Assembly (NCBI RefSeq): GCF_000177335.1
Contig: NZ_ADFP01000090.1
Coordinates: forward strand, 1-38,731
Origin: Pyramidobacter piscolens W5455
Lineage (GTDB): Bacteria; Synergistota; Synergistia; Synergistales; Dethiosulfovibrionaceae
DNA length: 38,731 bases
Direction of reading: 5' to 3'
The position numbers and the translations under genes are program-made. Below, piece by piece: positions 5,341-37,726 of the stretch (its first letter is position 1; the number at the start of each line of letters is the position of its first letter). The notes under the pieces are model-generated. The model had not been told where the DNA came from. It did not search any database and saw only the letters and a program-made list of their open reading frames with translations.

Positions 5341-5369
5341 ATTATAACATGACGGCGACACGACGGCAA
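5341..5369 (-). promoter_or_regulatory. Promoter of udp
   Basis: Read on the minus strand, TTGCCG (5364-5369) and a consensus TATAAT (5341-5346) are 17 bp apart, about 60 nt before the udp ATG. The -35 box begins in the T-tract of the terminator that ends the upstream TamB-like gene. Confidence 0.8.
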
Positions 5370-5404
5370 AAGACTCCGCAGCTGGAATACCTGCGGAGTC
5401 TTTT
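5368..5404. terminator. Terminator of the tamB-like gene
   Basis: A perfect 14-bp stem, AAAAGACTCCGCAG (5368-5381) with CTGCGGAGTCTTTT (5391-5404), and a 9-nt loop. On the minus strand it ends transcription from the TamB-like gene, whose stop lies about 25 bp before it. It overlaps the udp promoter. Confidence 0.9.
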
Positions 5405-5428
5405 GTCGTCGTGCAGGGGACGGAACGC

Positions 5429-11774: not shown

Positions 11775-11782
11775 TCAGAACC

Positions 11783-12120
11783 GGAGTGGTCCTGATAGTC
11801 GCTGCCGTGCAAACGGGAGAGGAAAGTCCGGGCTCCACAGGGCAAGACGCTGGATAACGTCCAGTTGGCGCGAGCCACAGGAAAGTGCAACAGAGAGCAG
11901 ACCGCCCGGTTCCCGTACCGGGTCAGGGTGAAAGGGTGGGGTAAGAGCCCACCGGGCGACAGGCGACTGTCGTGCCTGGCAAACCCCGTCTGGAGCAAGA
12001 TCGAATAGGGAGGGCCGAGGCTGCCCGCTGACCTCCGGGTACAGATCGCTTGAGACATGCAGCAATGCATGTTCTAGATAAATGACTATCCCAGACAGAA
12101 CCCGGCTTACGGGCCACTCC
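11783..12120 (+). ncRNA. rnpB: RNase P RNA (bacterial type A)
   Basis: The catalytic RNA that trims tRNA 5' leaders. The conserved core segments are plain: GAGGAAAGTCCGGGCTCC (11819-11836) near the 5' end, ACAGGAAAGTGCAACAGAGA further on (11876-11895), a GGGTAAGAG-type segment (11938-11948), and AGAACCCGGCTTACGGGCC close to the 3' end. The terminal helix P1 forms between GGAGTGGTCC (11783-11792) and GGGCCACTCC (12111-12120). At about 338 nt it is a normal size for the ancestral type. It is transcribed toward the division cluster from its own promoter, and terminators follow it. Confidence 0.97.
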
Positions 12121-12154
12121 GCCATCCCGTAAAAGCGTGAATGGTCAAGAAGTT

Positions 12155-34122: not shown

Positions 34123-35031
34123 ATGAATCTGAGCTCATGCGATATCTGCCCGCGCCACTGCGGAGCGAACCGGCGGGCCGGACAGAAAGGCTGGTGCGGC
34201 GCCGGCGAACTGGCGCGCGTGGCGCTGGTATCGCTGCACCGCTGGGAAGAACCGTGCCTGACCGGCGAAAAAGGCGCCGGAACGGTTTTTTTCTCCCACT
34301 GCACCATGAAATGCGTCTTCTGCCAGAATTATGACGTCAGCCACGGGGGGCGGGGCATTGAAGTCAGTTCGGAGCGCCTCGCCGGGATCTTTCTCGAACA
34401 GCAGCGCCGCGGCGCCGCGTCGCTCGACTTGGTGACGCCGACGCACTACGTGCCGCAGATTGTCGAGGCGCTCGATCGGGCCAAAGCGAACGGTTTTTCT
34501 CTGCCGGTCGTGTACAACTGCGGCGGCTACGAGCTGCCGGAGACGATCGAAGCGCTGCGCGGTTCCGTGGACGTGTTCCTGCCCGACCTGAAATATTGCG
34601 ACGATTCCCTGGCGCGGCGGTACTCCAACGCGCCGGATTATTTTCGATACGCTTCGGCGTCGATCGAGAAAATGTTCGAGATCGCGGGGCCGTTCGTGAT
34701 GAAAGACGGGCTGATGACCCGCGGCGTGCTGGTGAGGCACCTGATCCTGCCGGGGCACTATCGCGACAGTCTCAGGCTGCTGGATTATTTGCAGCGCACC
34801 TTCGGTTCGGACATCTGCGTGAGTCTGATGAACCAGTTCACGCCCATGCCGCAGGCCGCTTGCTGCCCCGAGCTGAACCGCCGCCTGATGGCCTGCGAGT
34901 ACGACAAGGTGCTGGACCACGCCGAAAAGCTCGGCATGGAAAACTGTTTTATCCAGCGCGGCCACACGGCGATGGAAAAATTCATCCCCGTCTTCGACGG
35001 GCGCAACGTCGCCCGCGATGAAGAAACGTAA
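34123..35031 (+). CDS. Radical SAM protein of the PflA-like (COG1313) group
   Basis: A 302-residue iron-sulfur enzyme. It starts with CDICPRHCGANR and a further Cys at WCGAG, a cysteine-rich head typical of this group, then has the radical SAM cluster motif CTMKCVFCQN (CxxxCxxC, about 65-74) that holds the 4Fe-4S cluster cleaving SAM. Later blocks NCGGYELPETIEAL, VDVFLPDLKY and RHLILPGH are shared with pyruvate-formate-lyase-activating-like proteins. No glycyl-radical enzyme gene is adjacent, so its target is unknown. GGGGAAG precedes the ATG. It appears to be a single-gene unit between two terminators. Confidence 0.9.
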   Translation: MNLSSCDICPRHCGANRRAGQKGWCGAGELARVALVSLHRWEEPCLTGEKGAGTVFFSHCTMKCVFCQNYDVSHGGRGIEVSSERLAGIFLEQQRRGAASLDLVTPTHYVPQIVEALDRAKANGFSLPVVYNCGGYELPETIEALRGSVDVFLPDLKYCDDSLARRYSNAPDYFRYASASIEKMFEIAGPFVMKDGLMTRGVLVRHLILPGHYRDSLRLLDYLQRTFGSDICVSLMNQFTPMPQAACCPELNRRLMACEYDKVLDHAEKLGMENCFIQRGHTAMEKFIPVFDGRNVARDEET

Positions 35032-35092
35032 ACGCAGCGGCAGGAAGAAGACGCGGTCAACCGCGCCGTTCTTCCTGTCGCTGCGTTATTTT
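35031..35092 (+). terminator. Terminator of the radical SAM gene
   Basis: AACGCAGCGGCAGGAAGAA (35031-35049) pairs over 19 bases with TTCTTCCTGTCGCTGCGTT (35069-35087), with one G-U pair; a small inner hairpin GCGG/CCGC sits in the loop and ATTTT follows. It begins at the stop codon itself. Confidence 0.88.
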
Positions 35093-35120
35093 GCGATCGC
35101 GGGTAAAAAACGGCGCGGCG

Positions 35121-35150
35121 TTGACATAATGTTGAGAACGATGTTATTAT
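35121..35150 (+). promoter_or_regulatory. Promoter ahead of the hairpin leader and glycosyltransferase
   Basis: A consensus TTGACA (35121-35126) and TATTAT (35145-35150) with an 18-bp spacer; TTATTA at 17 bp is an alternative reading. The sequence around it is strikingly AT-rich. Transcription would begin near 35157, only about 28 nt before a strong terminator-like hairpin. Confidence 0.75.
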
Positions 35151-35184
35151 TATTTTCATAATATGTTTTGCTTCCAAGGGTGCC

Positions 35185-35256
35185 GCGCCGCCGAAAGAGC
35201 GAGTACAGCTGCATCAAGCGCCGTACTCGCTCTTTCGGCGGCGCCTTTTCATTTTT
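35185..35256 (+). terminator. Strong terminator-like hairpin between promoter and glycosyltransferase start
   Basis: Twenty-two perfect base pairs (35185-35206 with 35223-35244), a 16-nt loop and then CTTTTCATTTTT. Placed between the only visible promoter and the coding start, it either ends a small RNA of about 100 nt or acts as an attenuator. No alternative antiterminator structure is obvious in the short leader. Confidence 0.8.
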
Positions 35257-35275
35257 CGACAGAGAGGTCGTGGCG

Positions 35276-37726
35276 ATGAAACCGCTTATGGATAAGCAAA
35301 AATCTTCCTGTGTCGTCATGAAACAGAATCAGGCCGGACATCCGCTCGTGAGCGTCGTCGTCCCCGTGTACAACGTGGAAGAATATCTCGAAGACATGCT
35401 GCGGAGCGTTTTGCGTCAGTCGTTGACGCAACTGGAAGTGATCTGCGTCAACGACGGCTCGACCGACGCTTCGTTGGACGTGCTGATGCGCTGGGCCGCC
35501 GAGGAGCCGCGCATTTCGGTGCTGTCGCAGGAAAACGCCGGACTGTCGGCCGCGCGCAACCGCGGGCTTGACGCCGCTGCGGGCGAGTACGCGATCTTTC
35601 TCGACGCCGGGGACAGGCTGCTGCCCGACAGTTTGCGGCGGCTGTACGATGCGGCTGTGAAAAACAAACTGGATTTGGTCAAAGGGGCGGTGCGCCTGAA
35701 GGGCGCGCGCCGCGGCGAAACGGAGCTGCCGGCGCCGTGGAGTCACCGCGATTGCCCGAAACTGTGGACGGCCGCGACCTTTGCCGAAGCGCCGCGCGAG
35801 CTGCTCGAGACGGCCGTTTCTTTCTACGGTCTGTACCGAACCGAGTTCGTGCGCCAAAGCGGCCTTGCGTTTTCGCCGCTGCCGGACGGCGGCGAACGCA
35901 GCTTCTCCGTGGGCTGTCTGACTGCGGCGCAGCGTCTGATGATCACCGACATTCCCGTCGCCGAGCGCCGTGTCGCCGAAACGGGATCGCCGTCCTTCGA
36001 ACGTCAGATTGTCTCGTATGCCGCGATTCGCGAGTTAGCGGCCACACTGCCGCAGGCAACGGCGCGCCTGGTTTGCCAGTGGGGGCTCAATCGCGTTTTC
36101 GAAGAATATTTCCGTCGGCTAGAACGGGGAAAAGACGTTTACGCCCTCCACGAACGCATCAAAGAGTTTGTCTGGTGCCTCGACGCAGACGACGTCGGCG
36201 AAGATTTTATCGCGGCGTTTGCGTACAAGGAGCATTTCTGGACGCTGAAAAATCTGTGTCTGCCGCCGCGCTTTGAGGGACGGCACGGCATCGCCGCGGA
36301 GGCGCGCCCGCTCGTCACGATCGTCATGCCCGTCTTCAACGCGCAGAGGTATCTGTGCGAAGCGGTGGAGAGCGCGCTGAGGCAGTCGCTGACTTCGTTC
36401 GAGCTGCTGTGCGTCGACGACGGTTCGACGGACGACACGCCCAATGTCCTGCGCGAATACGCCGCGCGCGACGGCCGGATCGTCGTGACGACGCAGGAAC
36501 ATGCCGGCGTCGGCGTGGCGCGTAACTTGGCGCTGGACGCGGCGCGGGGCGAATACGTGACGTTCCTTGACTCCGACGACGCGTTCGACGCCGATTATCT
36601 GCTGAAGATGACCGACCGGGCGCGCTCGACTCGGGCGGACGTCGTCGTGGGAGGAACGTACCGCTGGCAGGGCGGCGAAGCGGCGACCGCCGAACCGTCT
36701 TCGTTGCGGTTGAACCTGCTGCCGCGCGACCTGCCCGTGTTTTGTTGGCGCGACGTGCCGCAGTATATTTTCAATTTTTGCGACGGCGGTCCGGGCGGCA
36801 AGCTGTTCCGTCGCGATTTTATCGACTCCCTTCGGCTCCGCTTTCCGGCGCTGCCGCGCGCGGAAGATATTGTCTTTGTTTATGCGGCGCTGGGTGAAGC
36901 CTCGCGGATTATTGCGTACGACACTCCCGGGTACCGGCGCCGCGTCAACAATCCGCGCAGCCTCGAACACACCAAGGACGAATCGCCGCTGGCCTTTTGG
37001 GAGGCGACGAAACTGTGGAAGCGAAATCTGGCCGCGTCGGAATGCTGGCCGCAGGTGAAGCAGAGCTTCATCAACAGCACGCTGGATCGCTGCGCTTACA
37101 ATCTGCGCATGGTCGGTACGCTCGACAGCGTGTTCAGGATCCTGCGCGAGCTGAGAACGCAGGCCAACGAACTGATGGAGCTTGACCGGCGCGATCGCGG
37201 CTATTTTTACAATCCGTCGAATCTGGATTACGTGACGCGCCTGCTGCAGTACGAAGACGAAAGCGAGTATCTGTTCGCGCGCTGCCGCCGCCTGGACGGA
37301 CTCGAACTCCAGCTTCGGAACGTGAACGCGCGCTGCGCGAAGCTCGAAAAAGACCGGAGCCTCGCCGCACAGGAAGCGTCGCGGCGTCAGGCAGCCGAGA
37401 AAGAGCTGTCGTCGGCGCGTTCACAGCTGCAGAAAGAAACATCGCAGCGTCAGACAGCCGAGAAGGAACTGTCGTCGGCGCGTTCACAGTTGCAAAAAGA
37501 AACATCACAGCGCCAGACAGCCGAACGTGAGGCGGAGACGGCGCGCAACCAGCTGCGGACAAAAGAGAACGTGATGCATGATCTCCAGCGCAGCGTTTCC
37601 TTCCGCCTTGGCCGCGTTCTCACCTGGGTGCCGCGCAAAGCGCGCGGCGGCGTTCGCTGCTGGCGCGATCACGGATTGGCGCACATTCTGCGCCGGGCGC
37701 TGTGGCATCTGGGCCTGAAAAAATAA
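35276..37726 (+). CDS. Tandem GT2-family glycosyltransferase with a C-terminal coiled coil
   Basis: An 816-residue protein with two GT-A domains. Domain 1 (about 23-130) has VSVVVPVYNVEEYLED and CVNDGSTDAS, but its metal-binding site reads LDAGD (Asp110 to Asp113) rather than DxD. Domain 2 (from about 344) has VTIVMPVFNAQRYL, CVDDGSTDDT and an intact LDSDD (Asp432-Asp435). So domain 2 is likely active and domain 1 possibly weakened. A charged coiled coil (about 673-775) contains three copies of a 21-residue unit, ending in a basic tail. It has no membrane helix, and its sugar and acceptor are unknown; surface polysaccharide or protein glycosylation is a guess. ATG 35276 is set by AGAGAGG 8 nt upstream. 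Confidence 0.88.
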   Translation: MKPLMDKQKSSCVVMKQNQAGHPLVSVVVPVYNVEEYLEDMLRSVLRQSLTQLEVICVNDGSTDASLDVLMRWAAEEPRISVLSQENAGLSAARNRGLDAAAGEYAIFLDAGDRLLPDSLRRLYDAAVKNKLDLVKGAVRLKGARRGETELPAPWSHRDCPKLWTAATFAEAPRELLETAVSFYGLYRTEFVRQSGLAFSPLPDGGERSFSVGCLTAAQRLMITDIPVAERRVAETGSPSFERQIVSYAAIRELAATLPQATARLVCQWGLNRVFEEYFRRLERGKDVYALHERIKEFVWCLDADDVGEDFIAAFAYKEHFWTLKNLCLPPRFEGRHGIAAEARPLVTIVMPVFNAQRYLCEAVESALRQSLTSFELLCVDDGSTDDTPNVLREYAARDGRIVVTTQEHAGVGVARNLALDAARGEYVTFLDSDDAFDADYLLKMTDRARSTRADVVVGGTYRWQGGEAATAEPSSLRLNLLPRDLPVFCWRDVPQYIFNFCDGGPGGKLFRRDFIDSLRLRFPALPRAEDIVFVYAALGEASRIIAYDTPGYRRRVNNPRSLEHTKDESPLAFWEATKLWKRNLAASECWPQVKQSFINSTLDRCAYNLRMVGTLDSVFRILRELRTQANELMELDRRDRGYFYNPSNLDYVTRLLQYEDESEYLFARCRRLDGLELQLRNVNARCAKLEKDRSLAAQEASRRQAAEKELSSARSQLQKETSQRQTAEKELSSARSQLQKETSQRQTAEREAETARNQLRTKENVMHDLQRSVSFRLGRVLTWVPRKARGGVRCWRDHGLAHILRRALWHLGLKK
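37379..37567 (+). repeat. Three 63-bp in-frame tandem repeats in the glycosyltransferase gene
   Basis: Units at 37379-37441, 37442-37504 and 37505-37567 each encode 21 residues, exactly three heptads. Copies 1 and 2 are nearly identical (SxRQxAEKELSSARSQLQ...). The third diverges after SQRQTAER. The pattern suggests recent unit duplication and a coiled coil whose length could vary between strains. Confidence 0.9.

Follow-up and report, generated by a model that had tools for sequence, protein, structure and literature searches.

The window analysed here, a stretch of 38,731 nucleotides from contig NZ_ADFP01000090.1 of Pyramidobacter piscolens W5455, contains a gene for a glycosyltransferase of 816 amino acids (35276–37726, + strand) which, according to domain matches, comprises two GT2 domains and a repetitive C-terminal part. 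Upstream lie gapA, pgk and a radical SAM gene, a run closed by its own hairpin with 19-bp arms (35031–35087, + strand), which divides it from the glycosyltransferase unit. The glycosyltransferase gene is alone in this unit, and the gene downstream carries a DUF3298 domain. As a guess from its GT2 family, the enzyme might act on a surface glycan. Close orthologues are present in three of the five other genomes of the genus (G001, G004 and G005), and a scan of genome contigs located a relative on a contig of Pyramidobacter sp. C12-8. Comparison of the loci L033, L034 and L035 gave two GT2 domains for the window protein and three for that of G001 (1080 aa), and three were also judged, by length, for the 1122-aa protein of G004; this change in domain number apparently arose via in-frame recombination between GT2 domains. 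A longer form of the protein, with an N-terminal extension from TTG 35168 through the leader hairpin described below (852 aa), was discarded because a TGA in the G001 loop stops the frame. Elsewhere in the window, an RNase P RNA of bacterial class A occupies positions 11782–12125 (Rfam RF00010, 301.6 bits).

The leader of the glycosyltransferase gene is preceded by a putative sigma-70-type promoter (35121–35150, + strand), TTGACA-18-TATTAT with TGT before the −10 element, which matches the consensus at 11 of 12 positions and would place the transcription start near 35157, in agreement with the near-consensus promoter proposed by the first-pass annotation. It is the sole site scoring at least 11/12 in the 38.7-kb window, both strands having been scanned, and in shuffles of a 3-kb scanned region even a far more permissive threshold, 9/12, gave only 0.7 sites on average. 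The promoter is identical in G004, and in G001 the −35 element reads TTGACG with spacing and −10 element unchanged. The same annotation had seen no other promoter for the glycosyltransferase, and our search between the hairpin and the gene start (35256–35276) likewise found no promoter-like site. On the minus strand, a weak promoter-like site (9/12) is located inside the leader at 35149–35177 and points away from the glycosyltransferase. From the positions of promoter and terminator, we predict a leader RNA spanning 35157–35275 (+ strand), whose terminated form of about 95 nt would end at approximately 35252–35256.

The main feature of this leader is an exact 22-bp stem, whose 5′ arm (35185–35206, + strand) and 3′ arm (35223–35244, + strand) are followed by an interrupted U-tract, CTTTTCATTTTT (35245–35256, + strand), broken by C and A, present on the + side only and retained in the relatives. 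On re-reading the window, the perfect stem and the T-run, as well as the coordinates and sequence given earlier for the whole promoter-hairpin element, were found to be correct. The loop had been described as 16 nt long; a 16-nt apical part is indeed present (35207–35222, + strand), but it contains two further G-C pairs above an A·C mismatch (35207/35222), so that the true loop is the 10-nt sequence TGCATCAAGC (35210–35219). In two relatives the mismatch is replaced by a G-C pair, resulting in a continuous 25-bp helix. Folding of 35157–35266 yielded −56.4 kcal/mol (z = −8.3), and none of 200 shuffles was equally stable. Downstream of the T-run, a Shine-Dalgarno-like AGAGAGG (35261–35267, + strand) is placed 8 nt from the ATG at 35276, in a region conserved in all four genomes compared.

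With a G+C-rich perfect stem directly before a T-rich stretch and a positive terminator score, the element has the make-up of an intrinsic terminator. Scores of the d'Aubenton-Carafa type, calculated with our own implementation, were 4.9 in the window, 7.1 in G001 and 14.9 in G004, with 16.6 for the pgk terminator. Given the interruption of the U-tract, termination could be weak. Terminator prediction in E. coli has considered stems of 4–18 bp and loops of 3–10 nt, as a search rule and not as a strict definition (PMC2784873); the leader hairpin falls outside this combined range, with a stem of 22 bp (25 bp in G004) and a loop of 16 or 10 nt depending on how the apical part is counted. Stems of 17–27 bp are, however, common at gene ends in the genus, so that the E. 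coli range is not decisive for classing the element as a terminator.

The genus background was taken from two samples of 400 kb, one from G001 and one from G005 (800 kb in total), using crude gene calls. Perfect stems of at least 20 bp occurred 15 times in this sample; 14 of them lie downstream of genes, mostly where two genes converge, and the single stem ahead of a start codon is the orthologue of the leader hairpin. Long stems are thus how terminators usually look in this genus; what is unusual is the position in a leader. The succession of a promoter and a terminator-like stem of at least 15 bp within 120 nt was found only at the leader locus and its orthologue. Several other seeming leader hairpins in the relatives were spurious, produced by antisense gene calls.

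Leader identity to the window amounts to 97% over 35093–35275 in G004 and to 87% in G001, and in both genomes promoter, hairpin, T-run and Shine-Dalgarno sequence retain their order before the orthologue, that is, in three species including the window. The surroundings in G001 are different, as the radical SAM gene is not found upstream nor the DUF3298 gene downstream of the orthologue, and immediately before the leader there is a transposase-type fragment that carries an integrase-core (rve) domain. The block common to G001 and the window opens just 5′ of the −35 box and continues into the gene. Conservation of this leader block despite different neighbours argues that the hairpin belongs to the glycosyltransferase. 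Two other assignments were rejected, namely a terminator of the upstream gene, as the hairpin is present in G001 without that gene and the upstream gene has a terminator of its own, and a dispersed repeat or mobile hairpin, as the element is single-copy: we found no second copy elsewhere, and it always stands directly before the glycosyltransferase gene.

A deletion in G005 (L035, 2850–2950) has taken away the promoter together with most of the hairpin and fused the upstream hairpin to the leader T-run; in addition, a 1-nt deletion, at a site where a sequencing error is possible, breaks the frame of the glycosyltransferase gene. Promoter loss together with a frameshift would be expected if the leader promoter were the only one of the gene, and fits a decaying gene. 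Every species keeps the T-run, even G005 with its fused hairpin in place of the original one. Within the stem, G001 shows two changed positions, both of which give G-U in RNA and so keep the pairing; no two-sided compensatory change was found among the three intact leaders, a set of three sequences that cannot prove covariation. A comparison of window and G001 shows 3 differences in the 50 arm positions and about 15 in the 112 of the remaining leader, the latter counted by eye on the alignment, compared with 15% at fourfold-degenerate codon sites. Since the leader outside the hairpin diverges about as fourfold sites do, these figures do not establish constraint on the leader, and the difference between arm and leader divergence gives weak evidence of constraint on the stem.

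In our opinion, the reading with the best prospects, and a reasonably probable one judging from the sequence, is that the hairpin acts as a premature intrinsic terminator, i.e. an attenuator, in the leader of the monocistronic glycosyltransferase gene. On the predicted parts, a terminator is located between the only promoter of the gene and its start codon. RNA polymerase would start near 35157 at the gene's own promoter and produce a transcript with a 5′ tail of about 28 nt, followed by the 22–25-bp hairpin and the U-rich stretch. A fraction of the transcripts would stop at about 35252–35256, leaving the RNA of about 95 nt as a by-product, and others would continue by readthrough into the Shine-Dalgarno sequence and the glycosyltransferase gene. 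Our inferences are that termination occurs, that it affects only part of the transcripts and that it is subject to regulation. The first-pass annotation had left the choice between a small RNA and an attenuator; the order conserved in three species, the movement of the element together with the gene and its atypical position favour the attenuator, whereas the inverted loop and the single copy speak against a dedicated trans-acting small RNA.

Concerning the way in which such a terminator might be controlled, the RNA 5′ of the 3′ arm was not more stable than its shuffles in the window or in G004, although in G001 it did fold better, with only 3 of 200 shuffles as stable; no antiterminator fold was found in the window and G004 leaders. 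An Rfam scan returned nothing at the leader locus, the RNase P RNA being the only match in the window, and antitermination by a NusG paralogue was set aside as only one NusG-family gene was found in this genome. With neither an antiterminator fold, nor an Rfam family, nor a NusG paralogue at hand, constitutive partial readthrough, a leader-binding protein or translation of a short ORF remain as candidates. Our literature search found no Pyramidobacter transcriptome paper.

The succession of promoter, leader terminator, Shine-Dalgarno sequence and gene is like that of the attenuators surveyed by Naville and Gautheret among premature terminators of 5′ UTRs (PMC2965389). Many attenuator leaders have no known sensor, and their short leader RNA is a by-product which may act in trans (PMC2965389). 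In contrast to the glycosyltransferase leader, an antiterminator fold is usually visible in the attenuators of that survey, from whose main text the word 'glycosyl' is absent. Antitermination of surface polysaccharide genes by RfaH and LoaP likewise involves a terminator-containing leader before a glycosyltransferase; here, unlike in those systems, only one NusG-family gene was found and the unit is a single gene instead of an operon. Little RNA biology is on record for this genus, to which an attenuator at this locus would add a conserved leader terminator; the glycosyltransferase gene behind it varies in domain number between species.

It is less likely, and on the whole doubtful, that the hairpin barely terminates and that expression is constitutive, the stable 5′ stem-loop shielding the mRNA or serving as an RNase III site. 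Stabilising stem-loops sit near the 5′ end of mRNAs, and the distance of about 28 nt between this hairpin and the predicted 5′ end would suit such a role, as would the interrupted U-tract, a stem longer than those of usual terminators and the failure to find either an antiterminator or a sensor. For this role, however, the T-run would be superfluous, yet it has been retained throughout the species, even beside the fused hairpin of G005, and the other long perfect stems of the genus mark gene ends.

The leader also harbours a candidate upstream ORF of 38 codons (35163–35279, + strand), which runs through the hairpin and whose TGA lies within the ATGA of the glycosyltransferase start. None of the three intact leaders (window, G004 and G001, with 39 codons in the last) interrupts this frame, in spite of an indel and of the inverted loop, and in the G001 leader the other two reading frames are stopped. 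The open frame and the overlap of stop and start could suggest a coupling of the pyrBI type, in which a ribosome on the 38-codon ORF would meet the hairpin, block its folding and pass to the overlapping glycosyltransferase start; the pyrBI terminator of E. coli is similarly situated within a leader peptide gene, so that the leader ORF crosses the terminator hairpin as it does here (PMC4824070). We regard this coupling as improbable. The ORF, in a gene context unrelated to pyrBI, has no Shine-Dalgarno sequence and its ATG follows the predicted start of transcription by no more than a few nucleotides; the number of substitutions at third positions (4 of 7) is not significant, and arms that are nearly invariant make an open frame nearly automatic. 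Moreover, terminators that lie no more than 100 bp into a coding region mostly work well despite translation (PMC4824070). Slightly more improbable still is a variant in which a near-leaderless ribosome on the 38-codon ORF would melt the 22–25-bp hairpin and move to the overlapping start with no antiterminator RNA involved, the stem being kept perfect by a template switching that flips the loop too.

The loop had been proposed as a target-pairing region, and its conservation in relatives was put forward as a check. The G001 loop, GCTTGATGCA, is the exact reverse complement of the window loop TGCATCAAGC; its orientation is thus flipped between species, which is not the behaviour of a conserved single-stranded pairing region. 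Similar flips affect other hairpins of the genus. The 19-nt loop (35050–35068) of the upstream terminator at 35031–35087 is inverted between the window and both G004 and G005, the 9-nt loop (5382–5390) of a hairpin at 5367–5405 is flipped between species, and a 24–25-bp hairpin elsewhere has its loop in opposite orientations in G000 and in G005 and G001 (L109, L107 and L108). By our own count, four of about nine long hairpins orientable across Pyramidobacter species show such flips. Exact loop inversion is a product of interstrand template switching during replication, a process that can keep stems perfect, and the hairpin inversions described in rRNA show, as here, an exactly inverted loop on an unchanged stem (PMC8794818); the present cases concern long hairpins resembling intrinsic terminators with loops of 9–19 nt, compared with 7–8 nt in the longer cases reported for rRNA (PMC8794818). 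Loop flips might in theory also be introduced by an assembler whose k-mers are shorter than the stem; for two of the flips, however, the G004 and G005 assemblies show the same loop orientation. Be they real or made by assembly, these flips make the loop unpromising as a conserved pairing region, and the inversion of a terminator loop between sister species warns against taking such loops as small-RNA seeds.

The existence of a dedicated trans-acting small RNA of about 95 nt, pairing through the inverted loop, consequently seems very improbable. A promoter and a terminator about 100 nt apart would fit it, and the short forms of attenuated leaders may act in trans, as reported for greA (PMC2965389); nevertheless, the short 5′ tail diverges at a near-neutral rate, no copy occurs away from the glycosyltransferase gene, and the end of the T-run is just 20 nt from the gene start.

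Least credible of all, to the point of being hardly tenable, is a phase-variable switch in which the promoter would flip between 9-bp repeats (35111–35119 and 35182–35190), or the loop flip would act as in cwpV of Clostridium difficile: the repeats are present in the window and the loop is known in both orientations, but the repeats are missing in G001, for which reason an invertible promoter was rejected, the promoter orientation is identical in the three genomes that carry it, and gene-end terminators show equal flips. The cwpV locus shares with ours an intrinsic terminator between promoter and gene together with a DNA inversion; there, inversion of 195 bp creates or abolishes the terminator (PMC2784873), whereas here 10 nt invert within the loop, stem and T-run are unaltered, and the terminator is present in both states.

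As a separate observation, the palindrome TGTTCCACGTGGAACA, of which the window holds no copy, occurs 54 times in genome G000 (e.g. L123–L137) against 0 for the control, far above chance. In the sampled regions of two relatives only 2 copies per 400 kb were found, so the sites may be clustered. The palindrome fits the parS consensus.
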